From a virus: a stretch of 44,834 nucleotides of DNA. Within the stretch, counting starts at the first letter, position 1, and the number at the start of each line of letters is the position of its first letter. A program made the position numbers and the translations under genes. The stretch lies in the IMG/VR virus record IMGVR_UViG_3300047550_003680, positions 1-44,834 of that record; one strand, 5' to 3'. The notes beneath the pieces are model-generated. The model did no database searches. It was not told the origin of the DNA and was given only the letters and a program-made list of their open reading frames with translations. Below are positions 9,531 to 38,535 of this stretch, piece by piece.

Positions 9531-9760
9531 CTAACACGCCAAGCTTTGGTGACGTGGTGGATTCAACTTCACCAGCATCCCAAGAACAATTAGCTAAGCG
9601 CCAATACGGTTTTAGTACCATTTCTTACGACGGTTCTCCAACTGTTTACAAAGGAGGTGACGTTGTTCATCTCCCATATGAAATAACAGAAAAATCAACG
9701 ATGGAAGCAATAGGGCTTGCTTGGGCAGCATATGCGGAAGGTATTCCCGCACAAGAATAA
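9527..9760 (+). CDS. Small unknown protein coupled to the glycosyltransferase gene
   Basis: The protein has 77 residues (MTNTPSFGDV). Its ATG overlaps the upstream TGA (ATGA), so translation is probably coupled. It has no membrane segment or known motif. The middle is Ser/Tyr/Gly-rich and the end is short and acidic. Function is not recognised. Confidence 0.65.
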   Translation: MTNTPSFGDVVDSTSPASQEQLAKRQYGFSTISYDGSPTVYKGGDVVHLPYEITEKSTMEAIGLAWAAYAEGIPAQE

Positions 9761-9816
9761 GAATACTTAATGGATTAAAAGCAATAGATTAAAATATCTT
9801 TAAGCACTTGCGAGGG

Positions 9817-9844
9817 TGCACCGGCTTTTTCTATGGTCGGTGCA
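9817..9844 (+). promoter_or_regulatory. Inverted repeat around a possible -10 box upstream of the recombinase-like gene
   Basis: TGCACCG (9817-9823) and CGGTGCA (9838-9844) form a perfect seven-base inverted repeat with a 14-base loop. A weak -10-like TATGGT (9832-9837) lies inside the loop, 23 bases before ATG 9861. This may be an operator or a leader hairpin. A T-run also lies in the loop. Confidence 0.4.
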
Positions 9845-9860
9845 TCTAGCTCAATTCAGT

Positions 9861-10292
9861 ATGTCCCACTCTCCTCCGCTTGATCAACGCATTGTCGATG
9901 AGTATTTCTCACTGGTTTCCAGGCGTAAAAACGAAGGCATCGCCTGGCTTTTTGGTATGACAGCAACCTTTGGCCTTACGCCAGAGCAATTTAAAAATGC
10001 AGGTGGTTTTACCTGGGATGGCAACAACTTGATTATCGCAGGACGTAAACGAGCCATACGTCCTCTACATCCACAGTGGGTGCTTCTTTTCCAGCTAAAA
10101 GAAAAGCAGCCCCACGATGTGTGGAGCTGCTGGAGTCCCCTTGTGTCACGTCTGTATCGGGCTATGGCTCTCCAGGAGATCAGTATGAATGTCACTGATT
10201 TGATCCTGGCTCATAGCATGCGTAAAAGATATTATTCCTCCATCAAGCGGCAGCGGCAACGGGCTGCTCAATCTTTCGCAAGTGCTTCCTGA
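9861..10292 (+). CDS. Degenerate tyrosine recombinase-like protein
   Basis: The protein has 143 residues from ATG 9861; an upstream GTG-type extension would run through the inverted repeat. Residues about 17-85 resemble the start of an integrase catalytic domain: FGMTATFGLTPEQF corresponds to the usual GLRxxE helix, and an IIAGRKRAIRPLHPQW strand follows. The first catalytic Arg is replaced by Thr in GLTPEQ. The C-terminal HSMRKRYYSS segment is a poor match to the HxxR...Tyr region, and the N-terminal core-binding domain is absent. It is probably not an active integrase. Its 3' end overlaps the opposing HTH gene by 50 bases. The assignment is tentative. Confidence 0.5.
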   Translation: MSHSPPLDQRIVDEYFSLVSRRKNEGIAWLFGMTATFGLTPEQFKNAGGFTWDGNNLIIAGRKRAIRPLHPQWVLLFQLKEKQPHDVWSCWSPLVSRLYRAMALQEISMNVTDLILAHSMRKRYYSSIKRQRQRAAQSFASAS

Positions 10293-10938: not shown

Positions 10939-13900
10939 TGGCTTATTGGGATCCAAAGCAGGGATGGCAAGTTCTTTCTTATTCAACCGACTACAAAACA
11001 AACTACACAACAGTCGATCCGTTAGCTTTATATCCATATAAAACTGTTAATGATTTTTTTGTAGAAGCGCCATATAAAACAATTACAGATTTTGAAACGC
11101 TTTTTCCTTATAAAACTGCAGCGGACATTGCCGCTGGCTTTACACCAAAAACTGCCGATGATTTTCTTACATTATTTCCCAATAAAACAGATCAAGATTT
11201 TGCAGATCAATATCCAGCTAACAGGCCAACAACTGTAACTTTCTGGACAAAAATTGATTCAGATGGCAACAGACAAATAAGCTGGACAGAGCCAAATAAA
11301 CCAGCTAATTGGAATCAAAAAAGCATCACATACCAAGGAACGCTTAAACAACAGTTTTCTGACGGCTTCCGCAATAGTTTAAGTGACAATCAAAAGGATT
11401 TACTTTTAGCCAAAATTGCCGAATTAAACACAAATAACACAAGCAATTTAAACGATATTGACGCCAGAACTATTGCAGTTAATACGTATAATCAGCAACA
11501 AGCAATATTAAGAGATCAACAAGCAAATACTTACAATACAGAAGAACAACAGGCTGGACAACAAACTCTAGCGGAATACAATCAACAACAAGACCAACGC
11601 AGGCAGGAAGCGTTAACTACATTTAATCAGAATCAAGATACGCTTCGCCAACAATTAGCTTCAATCTACAACCAAGGGCAAGACACTCTTCGCGCCACAG
11701 CACAAAGTAACAATTTAACTGCAGCAGACATCAATCAAAAAAATCTTCAACTTAATCAGAAAAACCAGATACTTAATGAATGGAGCCAGGAAGTAGTTAA
11801 TTATTTACAGGGTAGCAAAACAGGAACTCCAGATAATCCTACATATGTATCTACACGAGATGGATTGCCTACTCAAAAATTATCTAATTTATTGTCGCAA
11901 GGATTAATAACACAGAATGAATATGACACTTACGTTAATACAGCAAAAAGTGGATTTAAAGCTTATTACTTAATTGATAGATTATCTCCTTGGAATCCCA
12001 AGGAAGGACTGCAACCTCCCACGGGGGTATTTAACTCATTGTATTACCGTACCCAGACCGGTGATATAGGAAACAGTGTTGATCAACGATTTAACGCCGC
12101 ATTGCAAAATGATGATTTAGATATTTTGGGTCGTTTTGATCGCGATCTTTATGCGCATTATCATTACACCACTGTCGGAAATAAATTGGGTGCGCGTGGA
12201 AACGACGTAGACGACGCACAACTTGTACAAAAGTATGCAGAATTTTTAACTGATGCAGATTATCAACTTTATAGGGATCGCGTTCTTGGCGTAGGTGACC
12301 AATCTTTACTTGGTGAGCAGGTATCTCAGTTAACAACAGAAGAAGAACAACAAAAAGAAAAAATGTTTGGCGCAATGACGCTGGACGCACTAAAAGAATC
12401 ACTCCAGGCTTTGCAAAACGCAAAAGCACAAGAACAGCAATTTGATTTATATGCACAACTAGACGGATTTAAAGAAATTACAACATTAAATCAAGATATC
12501 AGTGCGTCTATTCTTGGTGATTTTGGTGCAGGCGGCATCATGGGTTGGATGGGAGGACAAGAAGATACAGAAGAAAAGTTTTCAAAAGAATTAGGAAAAA
12601 TTACTGGAATCCCAAGTCGCAGCACGGCTGTATATAACTGGCAAAAGTGGTTTGATGAACAATTGACTACAAAGTACAAGGAAGGAACAACTTTCCAGGA
12701 TCTGGAAGACCCCACTAAAACCTATGTGTTGGATAAAGAATTTGCGGATAAGTACATTAATACTTACTTGAAGCCACGCTTTGATGCTTCCAAGTCAATG
12801 TCTGAATTCACAAGTTATCTGGATGTGTCACAAGCAGAACAAAACATATTCCAAACACAAAGCTCTATTAGCGCATTAAAAGATATTGCAGATCTAAGGG
12901 CGAAGGCGTATTTAGATCAAATTTATCGGCAGTCCAATACGCAAAAATCAAATTTTGATCCTGAGTTTTATTTAAATCCGACAGGTAATTTTAGCGCAGA
13001 TGATCCAAGGCTTACTAAATATGCCGAACAAAAAGCAAAAGTTGATTCAGATTATCAATTGGCCAAATCTAATCCCAATACTGTTGTTGAAGGCATAGGA
13101 AAAACATGGGCGCAACTTGCATATCAATATGGTTTAGATATCAACGATCCACTACAATTTGCCAGATTACATTATGAAGTTGTGGGCGGACCTAAATATA
13201 ATTTTGACGGCGCAAGAGACGTTTTAACATTTCAAGATGCAAATCAATATATTCAAAATACAATATTGCCGCAAATTTTAGAGGAGAAAAACAATCTTGG
13301 CGATGTAACATTTATGAATTTTGTGACGCCAGAATCTTTTGCTGATGAGCTTTTGCGTGGCGTAAATCCTGAAACAAATAAAGAGGAATGGAATAAACTA
13401 CTTGAGTCCCAGGGGTTGGCAGGTAGCGATGCTGGCATAGATGAAGTAAGGCAATATATCATCGATTCTTTTAGGACTAATGCCGCGCAACAAATTCGAG
13501 AATCTATTAAGTACTTAAACGAGAAAAGGTTGCGTCCAACACAAGAAAGGTTGGGAGTTGATTATATTGAAAGGACCAGTGACGCAGCAACAACTGGTTC
13601 GCCAGAAGAAACCGAATTATACAAAGTGTTTCGCAATGCTGGTTACCAAGGAACAGAAGATGATTTTTATAACTCTTTTATGACCGATATTGATAGAGGG
13701 GAAATGGAATTATTTACACAAGGAAGTAAGGCCGGTGGAATTCAATTAGGCGGCAGTTACTCAGGATTGACCAGTAGTGATCCCTTTGAAAGCATGGCAT
13801 CAATGGAAAGTTTATTTGACAACGCAAAAGAAACAACAACAACAGAAGATAAACAAGCGCCTAGTTACTTTAGACTGTTTGATGAAGAAGATACAGATGA

Positions 13901-36769: not shown

Positions 36770-36788
36770 GTGTTATCTTGAGTGTGAT

Positions 36789-36862
36789 CGGGGTGTAGCG
36801 CAGTTTGGTAGCGCAATTGCTTTGGGAGCAATGGGCCGCAGGTTCAAATCCTGCCACTCCGA
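36789..36862 (+). tRNA. tRNA-Pro (anticodon TGG)
   Basis: The cloverleaf is complete. The acceptor CGGGGTG pairs with CACTCCG (one G-U), the D arm is GCGC...GCGC, the anticodon stem ATTGC/GCAAT encloses loop TTTGGGA, and the T arm is CAGG-TTCAAAT-CCTG. The discriminator is A and no CCA is encoded. It may boost translation of CCA/CCN-rich phage genes such as the Pro/Gly-rich virion proteins. Confidence 0.95.
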
Positions 36863-36866
36863 TATT

Positions 36867-36940
36867 GCTGATGTAGCTCAGTTGGATAGAGCAGGGTTTT
36901 TGTAAAGCTCAGGCCAGGAGTTCAAGTCTCCTCATCAGCT
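36867..36940 (+). tRNA. tRNA-Thr (anticodon TGT)
   Basis: The acceptor GCTGATG pairs with CATCAGC and the D arm is GCTC...GAGC. The anticodon stem GGGTT/AGCTC includes G-U pairs and holds loop TTTGTAA, and the T arm is AGGAG-TTCAAGT-CTCCT. It starts four bases after tRNA-Pro. Threonine (often ACA) is very frequent in the fibre genes of this window, so extra ACA decoding would be useful. Confidence 0.92.
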
Positions 36941-36978
36941 TTTAATTTGTTATATTAATTGCAGCATATTTGATATGG

Positions 36979-37269
36979 ATGCCAAGCGCATCACGTAAGC
37001 AACGTATCAATAAAAATCGAGAGAAGCTTCTTGAATACAAGAAGACTTTGGAGTGCGAGCAGTGTGGGTTGAAGGATTATCGCGTGATTGAATTCCATCA
37101 CGTCAGTGAAAAAGATATGAACGTATCAACGATGGTAAAAGATGGATACGGCTGGAGCCGCATCCAAGAAGAGATTAGTAAATGTATACCACTATGTTGT
37201 AATTGCCATAGGGTAACACACTGGAAACAACCAACTGTTAATACATTTGTATTTAATTGTTGGTTTTAA
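36979..37269 (+). CDS. HNH-type zinc protein, 96 residues
   Basis: From ATG 36979 (MPSASRKQRI). The N-terminus is basic (RINKNREKLLEYKK). The core has CEQCG, VIEFHHVSEKD (double His of HNH nucleases) and CIPLCCNCHRVTHW (second Cys pair and His). It is compact and probably a nicking endonuclease. It follows the tRNAs, a common place for phage HNH genes. Its stop overlaps the opposing gene by four bases. Confidence 0.78.
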   Translation: MPSASRKQRINKNREKLLEYKKTLECEQCGLKDYRVIEFHHVSEKDMNVSTMVKDGYGWSRIQEEISKCIPLCCNCHRVTHWKQPTVNTFVFNCWF

Positions 37270-38369
37270 TATTTAGGAACAATTACTCTATTTGGATCTG
37301 TAATAAAGTTATATAGTTCTTTTTCCATTTGATTGCGTTTATTAATTTGGATTTCATTTCCTTTAGAAGTTAAACCGTATTCTGCCGGGTTGTATCCATA
37401 TTGAGACAAAGCTTGTTCCATTGGATTTAATTTATTTCCTTGCGCAGCTCGCATAGCGCTTCCTGTTAAACCTGTAATTGCATTTGCTCCTCGTCCTAAT
37501 AATTCTCCTATTACGCCTTGAGTAAAACCAGGAAACATACCTGTTGTTAAGTAACTGCCTTTAGCCAAAAGATTTTGTTTATGGTTCCAGGGGATACCAG
37601 CAGCTTTTGCTAATGGCATTCCATAACGATCTGCTTGTGCTTCAGCAATTAAAGTGTGTTGGCTAGCTCCTAATCCAGCTAAAGCACCTTCAATTCCTGC
37701 TCCTAATAATGAGCGATCATCATTGTTTTTAAAGTTTCCGCTAGTAATTACTAAAGCTCCAGGGCTTGTGTTTTTTACTGAAAAGTTTGTTTCAGCGCGT
37801 GCTAATTTTGCCGGGTCATTAAAAATATCTTTTGCGTATTCAAATGCTTTAGGACGTTTGAAAAAATCAATTGCATGACCAAATTCATGTGCAGCAATCC
37901 AAGCCGGAACTTTTGAATTAGTGCGTATAGCTTGATCATGAAGATCAAAATAAGGACCCATAGATACATAACTTCCACCTCCTTGAGTATCAAGTTGCAC
38001 TCCTTTTGGCAGCGTGCCTTGACCAAAATCTTTTGGCAATGTTTTTGGGAAGTCAACGCTCCAAGAACCTGGCTGACCTAAACGTTGCATCTGCACATTA
38101 GCAGCATCCATTAATTTAGGTAATGCTTTTATATTGGTTCCCCAAGAAGAAGAATCAAGAACTTTTCTTAGATTAGAACGAATTGCTTGTGTTGCAGGAG
38201 CCAAGCTTTCATTAACTACATATCCAGCAACGTCTTGTGGATTAATTGCCCTGATTGTATTGCTTAAAGGATTAGGCGTTCCACCTCCTGGTAAATATCC
38301 ACCAAGGCGTTTATCCGCTTCGCGATAACCGCGACCAACTGTATTAAGTAATTGTTGAAAAGGATTCAT
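37266..38369 (-). CDS. Large virion-like protein with an M48-like zinc protease motif
   Basis: The protein has 367 residues and begins MNPFQQLLNTVGR, similar in style to the 338-1798 protein (MNPLQFLYGA). Residues 157-170 read AWIAAHEFGHAIDF, a full HExxH zinc-binding helix (His161, Glu162, His165). Residues 241-250 read IAEAQADRYG, the ExxAD pattern that supplies the third ligand (Glu243) in M48 gluzincins. A Gly/Ala hydrophobic stretch lies between. It is probably an ejected or processing protease. It has its own TATAAT box 26 bases upstream. Confidence 0.75.
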   Translation of the reverse strand: MNPFQQLLNTVGRGYREADKRLGGYLPGGGTPNPLSNTIRAINPQDVAGYVVNESLAPATQAIRSNLRKVLDSSSWGTNIKALPKLMDAANVQMQRLGQPGSWSVDFPKTLPKDFGQGTLPKGVQLDTQGGGSYVSMGPYFDLHDQAIRTNSKVPAWIAAHEFGHAIDFFKRPKAFEYAKDIFNDPAKLARAETNFSVKNTSPGALVITSGNFKNNDDRSLLGAGIEGALAGLGASQHTLIAEAQADRYGMPLAKAAGIPWNHKQNLLAKGSYLTTGMFPGFTQGVIGELLGRGANAITGLTGSAMRAAQGNKLNPMEQALSQYGYNPAEYGLTSKGNEIQINKRNQMEKELYNFITDPNRVIVPKY

Positions 38370-38370
38370 A

Positions 38371-38535
38371 TTAACGGATTAAACCATATCCTTGATTATA
38401 AACTCGCTGCATTAATGGATCTGCTGCGGCAAAGATTCGTTGAACTTCTCGACGTTCAAAGGATCGGCCATTTTTATTACCTTGTATAAGGTATCCTACC
38501 GCGCAATAATTGTTGCCACATATAACGAGCTTCAT
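38371..38535 (-). CDS. Small overlapping protein, 54 residues
   Basis: From ATG 38535 (MKLVICGNNYCAVGYLIQGN), with a convincing second half (FERREVQRIFAAADPL, QRVYNQGYGLIR). It overlaps the 3' end of the 38477 gene by 59 bases in another frame and stops one base before the zincin-gene ATG. The natural composition of the non-overlapping part supports coding. Confidence 0.5.
   Translation of the reverse strand: MKLVICGNNYCAVGYLIQGNKNGRSFERREVQRIFAAADPLMQRVYNQGYGLIR
38395..38400 (-). promoter_or_regulatory. -10-type promoter for the zincin gene
   Basis: The minus strand reads TTTATAATC, with TATAAT ending 26 bases before ATG 38369, inside the end of the small overlapping gene. Confidence 0.5.

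Follow-up and report, generated by a model that had tools for sequence, protein, structure and literature searches.

A leader-bearing zincin gene of S-EIV1-like cyanophages, a candidate virion-packaged protease with exchangeable bodies

The window, which is the whole stretch of DNA analysed here, comprises the 44,834 bases of an IMG/VR virus record. On its minus strand it carries the gene P0001 (37266..38369), which encodes a zincin-like protein of 367 aa with a short N-terminal leader. In our preferred reading, to which we give a probability of roughly 45%, P0001 is an exchangeable, leader-addressed and probably virion-packaged effector protease, which would be a cargo of S-EIV1-like cyanophages. 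The observations behind this reading are the conservation of the zincin motif and its ligands, the modularity of the leader, two recurrent genomic sites, a breakpoint at the junction of leader and body, and a swap of the cassette.

Zincin motifs and conservation of P0001

Two motifs of P0001, HEFGH and EAQADRYG, were pointed out in a preliminary description of this DNA, and both are indeed present. HEFGH occupies residues 161-165 (37875..37889, minus strand) and provides the predicted zinc ligands H161 and H165 as well as the predicted general base E162. EAQADRYG occupies residues 243-250 (37620..37643, minus strand) and contains the predicted third zinc ligand E243. The distance to E243 is 82 residues from H161; the 78 residues given previously for the first zinc His are counted from the second one, H165. 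The pattern HExxH occurred in 0.18% of 200,000 shuffles of P0001, and HExxH followed 15-110 residues on by ExxA[DEN] in 0.0045% of as many.

Five further full-length homologues could be identified (L163, L164, L165, L166 and L199), which are 47-55% identical to P0001. The first two were found by a degenerate DNA scan for HExGHA-DF and then phmmer, the remaining ones by an alignment-based DNA scan and the leader scan. None of the residues H161, E162, H165, E243, A246, D247 and R248 varies among the six members, which share the patterns HExGHA.D and E..ADR.G. The motif is thus conserved in the homologues, and its loss from them, named beforehand as counter-evidence, was not what we found. The C-terminal ~110 residues of P0001 are conserved as well. 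The reading frames are intact in all six members. Four pairs, two of which are from the P0001 family and one each from two other body types, have pN/pS values well under 1. Because of this purifying selection and the intact frames, a spurious ORF or a sequencing error could be ruled out as an explanation of P0001.

A seventh copy of the family (L207, 6445-7545 of contig IMGVR_UViG_3300049043_000087) keeps the motifs, and frameshifts break the gene. This broken copy lies at the second of the two genomic sites described below, site B, and the same contig has another leader gene at site A. It is possibly a decaying copy or an assembly error.

Family assignment and predicted structure

The P0001 family is not claimed by any Pfam, PHROG, NCBIfam or PDB sequence family. 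Single-sequence searches of phage records, IMG/VR, PDB sequences, PHROGs, NCBIfam and PADLOC were empty, and in prokaryote genomes no relative was found by alignment or by the leader pattern. Of the previous designation as M48-like the ExxAD signature stands, whereas Peptidase_M48 (PF01435) gave no match at E <= 10 in any of five members and was not found in four related phage genomes either. Zn_peptidase_2 (PF04298) matched P0001 with 10.8 bits (E 0.35) and the best member with E 0.049, all members being below the curated cut-off of 27 bits. Besides the leader, P0001 has one recognisable catalytic domain, and Pfam searches gave no further domain for it, the conserved C-terminal ~110 residues included.

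Two AlphaFold2 models, for which only five or six sequences were available, have a mean pLDDT of 48 and 53. The better-predicted stretches of P0001 are a helix at residues 76-96, the HExxH helix at residues 156-171 and the part around E243 in the helix 221-256. Short strands are placed between the first helix and the HExxH helix, which is the zincin order. The gluzincin-like core may therefore be delimited, from low-confidence secondary structure and a second look with VIA, to about residues 76-256 (37602..38144, minus strand), with the predicted order helix, three strands, HExxH helix and Glu helix. Foldseek found nothing at E <= 0.001 for either model and no match below E 0.4, so that the structure adds little weight to the proposed fold.

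The matches of the VIA second look are nearly all gluzincins, with best Z scores of 4.7 and 5.7 for the two low-confidence models. They include 3c37, a putative Zn-dependent peptidase (Z 4.7), and IrrE (3dte, Z 4.5 and 5.7), as well as minigluzincins, lethal factor, ACE-type enzymes and collagenases; the absence of a family from these lists does not exclude that family. If the last helix is aligned without gaps, E243 would fall on E735 of lethal factor and E113 of IrrE, which we take to be the third zinc ligands of those proteins. The assignment of P0001 as a putative zinc metallopeptidase of the gluzincin type is well supported by the motif conservation, the predicted order of the fold and the second-look structural matches. 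A zincin fold with a metal site is graded as highly probable, and we infer that P0001 binds zinc and is catalytically active.

A common leader on unrelated bodies

Residues 1-40 of P0001 (38250..38369, minus strand) comprise an amphipathic helix and ADKRLGGYLPGGG. The leader is ~35-40 residues long, and its motif after the helix takes the form ADKxLGGxLPGGG. This segment, which recurs on interchangeable bodies, is the main finding here and had no part in the preliminary description. The hydrophobic moment of the helix is 0.69, a value which none of 5000 shuffles matched. A DNA scan for ADK[RQ]LGGxLPGGG returned 26 contigs, and in all of those examined the motif is N-terminal in its ORF. Two more contigs, L204 and L206, came from a relaxed scan. 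Five hits of that scan were discarded, in L200, L202, L203 and L205 because the ORF with the motif lacks the remaining leader, and in L201 because no ORF carrying the motif was found. Altogether the leader is present in 29 viral contigs, the window included, from the S-EIV1 lineage of Synechococcus phages and a neighbour. The strict motif occurs once per contig in 15 contigs, and G022 has an additional degenerate second copy. The codons of the motif vary freely, which indicates that selection acts on the peptide.

At least four unrelated bodies carry the leader, namely two zincin groups and two non-zincin types. Type a is that of the window (HExGHAID...ExxADR). Type b (HELGH...EEDRAERFA) and type c (HEAGH...EEDYAERF) are homologous to each other, and both keep HExxH together with a downstream Glu. 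Types d and e are without HExxH. In profile-profile comparison the leader is the sole part that aligns between unrelated bodies: the alignment of the P0001 family with group b was limited to residues 1-40 (E 2e-19), and that is also true for group d. Between body types the leaders are on average 67-81% identical and the bodies 24-31%.

The leader bodies without HExxH have a D[RE]xYxF-type motif in common (L186, L192, L196, L197 and L206; L046, L182 and L193). No Pfam family was found for these non-zincin bodies. A colicin-M-type site was considered for the motif, and Pfam gave no support for it.

The leader helix also resembles the N-terminus of a late gene located upstream of the terminase (8.2 bits, the best of 1080 shuffles reaching 6.4), a likeness which covers about 18 residues only. 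We consider it fairly likely that the leader is a sorting or docking module. It could have a role other than packaging, such as membrane binding, partner docking or regulation.

A further zincin of 239 aa with the motif HEGAH is encoded by L005 (11962-12681). Homology of this protein to P0001 is not detectable, and it has no glycine-rich leader motif. It starts with MADPSLFQDYMN, which resembles the leader of L046 (MPDPSLFQQFLN) and the second gene of G022 (MADPNIFQQFLN). Judged from these sequences, its N-terminus is perhaps a degenerate leader.

Two genomic sites

The leader genes were found at two sites. The exceptions are L204 and L206, whose neighbourhood has no match to the reference genes, and fragments which are too short to tell. 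Both sites hold bodies of types a, b and d.

Site A is located downstream of a Dps-like gene. In the window this fixed flank is the Dps/ferritin-like gene P0003 (40149..40700, minus strand), which matches Pfam Ferritin (E 1.9e-11) and PHROG 3636 and has a homologue in S-EIV1. Upstream of it lies P0004 (40727..42061, minus strand), which encodes a virion structural protein (PHROG 1645, E 2.2e-145) with homologues in cyanophages and HMO-2011. The other flank is an HNH-type endonuclease gene (36970..37269, plus strand; Pfam HNH E 0.044, below the cut-off), which is tail to tail with P0001. It holds the same position beside most leader genes of site A, usually tail to tail and a few bases past the stop. 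Two tRNA genes, tRNA-Pro(tgg) and tRNA-Thr(tgt), are found at 36788-36940 just past the HNH gene and beside the variable site.

Site B lies between a DUF5872 gene and a small basic gene (s69). The gene order in L163, L176, L192 and L199 is DUF5872-X-s69-portal-MCP, with the terminase upstream where visible. In L163 the brackets of the site are a DUF5872-like gene at 9705-9989 (E 2e-5, just under the cut-off) and the gene of a 69-aa basic protein at 11095-11304. The earlier description of P0001 as a virion-type protein is plausible on this positional basis, since homologues are encoded in a terminase-portal-head operon, although site A in the window lies outside the head operon.

The partner of P0001 in the cassette is P0002 (38477..40156, minus strand; 559 aa). 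Neither a pattern scan nor the phage records yielded any relative of it. The C-terminal 166 residues are found again in L182, where the gene at site B joins them to a different N-terminus, and residues 485-557 share 41% identity with a segment that overlaps the S-EIV1 late-cluster gene AHV82233. The hydrophobic C-termini of P0002 and of a 712-aa cassette protein from L005 matched with E 0.02-0.1, and elsewhere with 0.24 and worse; this was not counted as homology. P0002 also contains FAHDVFSHGYPE, an HDxxxH arrangement, with acidic residues further on. As HExxxH variants of peptidases have been described among polyvalent proteins (PMC5512222), the cassette may here encode a second metal-binding domain, of an unusual kind.

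The nearest named relative of the window is the freshwater Synechococcus phage S-EIV1 (KJ410740, 79 kb), whose primase is 57% and whose Dps-like protein is 63% identical. Both share the gene order primase, exonuclease, HNH, cassette, Dps. S-EIV1 differs in that its cassette is another gene of 488 aa, annotated as sulfate adenylyltransferase, and in that the strict leader motif is absent. Despite this annotation the gene (AHV82152; L174 17153-18619) follows the Dps-like gene in the place of the cassette, and the C-terminal tail of its protein (VPRGSVAG...GIFGR) resembles that of the 712-aa protein of L005. The annotation deserves checking.

Exchange of the bodies

The comparison of L176 and L192, which have bodies b and d at site B, locates the breakpoint. 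Upstream the two contigs are 90-97% identical, with 97% just upstream of the leader; the leader is 90% identical and the next 120 bp only 42%, in comparison to a shuffled baseline of 46%. The same step of identity at the junction of leader and body was observed for pairs from site A with differing bodies. Leaders on different bodies are 78% identical within the same site and 69% across sites. The identity steps and the greater likeness of same-site leaders indicate that leaders tend to be retained in place and bodies to be replaced.

Whole cassettes are exchanged as well. The flanks of L005 and L006 are 99.7% identical to the window on one side and about 96% on the other, and in these contigs the cassette consists of the 239-aa HEGAH zincin and the 712-aa protein instead of P0001 and P0002. 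As revealed by translation, the window contains a fossil of the 3' end of such an L005-type zincin gene, ERREVQRIFAAADPLMQRVYNQGYGLIR followed by a stop (38371..38458, minus strand). The fossil corresponds to the last 28 codons of that gene and lies just upstream of P0001; positions 38340-38458 of the window are 92% identical to L005 12594-12712. L007 and L012 have no cassette. The shared leader on unrelated proteins at the same two places of the genome points to a plug-in slot, whose proteins may be carried in the virion.

Proposed function and alternative explanations

According to the proposed mechanism the leader, with its amphipathic helix and LGGxLPGGG, would be a common address tag, which most likely docks P0001 to the assembling head or portal. 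The docked protein would be packaged and would enter the cell together with the DNA, and its body would then cleave a host protein, the likeliest target being a defence or regulatory protein. The leader would keep the genomic site, and recombination at its junction with the body would swap the bodies; at site A the HNH gene adjoins the cassette. The link to the virion is drawn from gene position, from the modest likeness of the leader to the late-gene N-terminus and from the likeness of part of the P0002 C-terminus to a late-cluster segment of S-EIV1; packaging of P0001 has about even chances. An action against the host after entry is a little less probable than that. Still more tentative is a general cargo-loading code of these cyanophages, in which a leader of ~35 residues would direct otherwise unrelated effectors to the virion, from at least two groups of zincins and two types of non-zincin proteins; bodies would be exchanged at the junction, at two fixed loci of which one adjoins an HNH gene.

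P0001 might also act within the cell, as a protease for takeover or counter-defence, and never be packaged. The leader would then be a membrane- or partner-binding helix, which agrees with its strong amphipathicity, and HNH-assisted hot-spot exchange would explain the variability, as the highly variable site adjoins an HNH gene and presence/absence variation is typical of accessory genes. We regard this explanation as rather unlikely, because the placement in the head operon recurs in four contigs, the gene lies beside a virion structural gene elsewhere, and the leader resembles a late-gene N-terminus.

Slightly less likely again is a late maturation protease, which would process scaffold, ejection or cargo proteins during head assembly and perhaps cut its own leader, or a different one, within the glycine-rich stretch. 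In L163 and L199 the gene is placed between the terminase and portal genes, and a zincin is thought to process DdrB of phage P1 before packaging (PMC5512222). However, the protein is dispensable: the cassette is missing in L007 and L012, and other zincins or bodies without HExxH are found in its place. Such replaceability, which extends to bodies lacking HExxH, speaks against a maturation protease that is essential. Moreover, most contigs have a single leader gene, so that the protease would usually be without another leader-bearing substrate. A zincin fold without catalysis, serving as a structural or binding domain, would be in line with the weak structural models and with an activity that is predicted only, but is very improbable, since six divergent members have kept every ligand and the general base amid varying sequence and the leader-bearing groups b and c also retain HExxH and the downstream Glu.

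If the leader of the preferred reading is a packaging tag, proteins could be loaded into phage heads by means of a short signal that can be transferred, and its sequence would help to find injected effectors in uncultured and mostly unannotated phages. Phages of ecologically important freshwater cyanobacteria would in that case swap injected proteases rapidly, and the host targets would be under arms-race pressure. The cargo-loading code, if true, would mean that these effectors form a polymorphic system, delivered by the virion, whose basis is a packaging tag that can be transferred.

Comparison with known systems

The internal proteins and Alt of phage T4 carry a capsid targeting sequence, a short N-terminal tag on different cargo proteins. 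The leader of P0001 is likewise a short N-terminal tag on different proteins, with a putative cargo role. The two sequences are unrelated, and the phage lineages differ. MuF-fused effectors are similar in that enzymatic bodies of variable kind are joined, within the head gene cluster, to a constant part linked to the head; in contrast to the leader of ~35 residues, this part is a domain of the MuF or portal kind. Like P0001, peptidase family M48 (PF01435) and Zn_peptidase_2 (PF04298) have HExxH and a downstream third-ligand Glu, which lies in ExxAD in M48. They differ from P0001 in the profile searches, with no M48 match at E <= 10 and E values of 0.049-0.35, below the cut-off, for PF04298.

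A precedent comes from the polyvalent proteins of phages, which include P1 DdrB and the virion RNA polymerase of N4 (Iyer et al. 2017, PMC5512222). The preliminary description stated that M48-like proteases of virions are not commonly described, which was too strong: zincin-like peptidases are the commonest domain of polyvalent proteins, and some of these are packaged in heads (PMC5512222). P0001 shares with them a predicted phage zincin domain with HExxH and a downstream Glu helix, the predicted packaging and injection, and the swapping of domains. One clade of polyvalent zincins has an Asp three residues past the motif (PMC5512222), and P0001 reads H-E-F-G-H-A-I-D. The polyvalent proteins comprise 2-15 domains, whereas in P0001, which is small (367 aa), a single catalytic domain can be recognised behind the short conserved leader, and a significant Pfam match is absent. 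The new element in comparison to the polyvalent precedent is the short leader together with the junction-specific exchange of the bodies.
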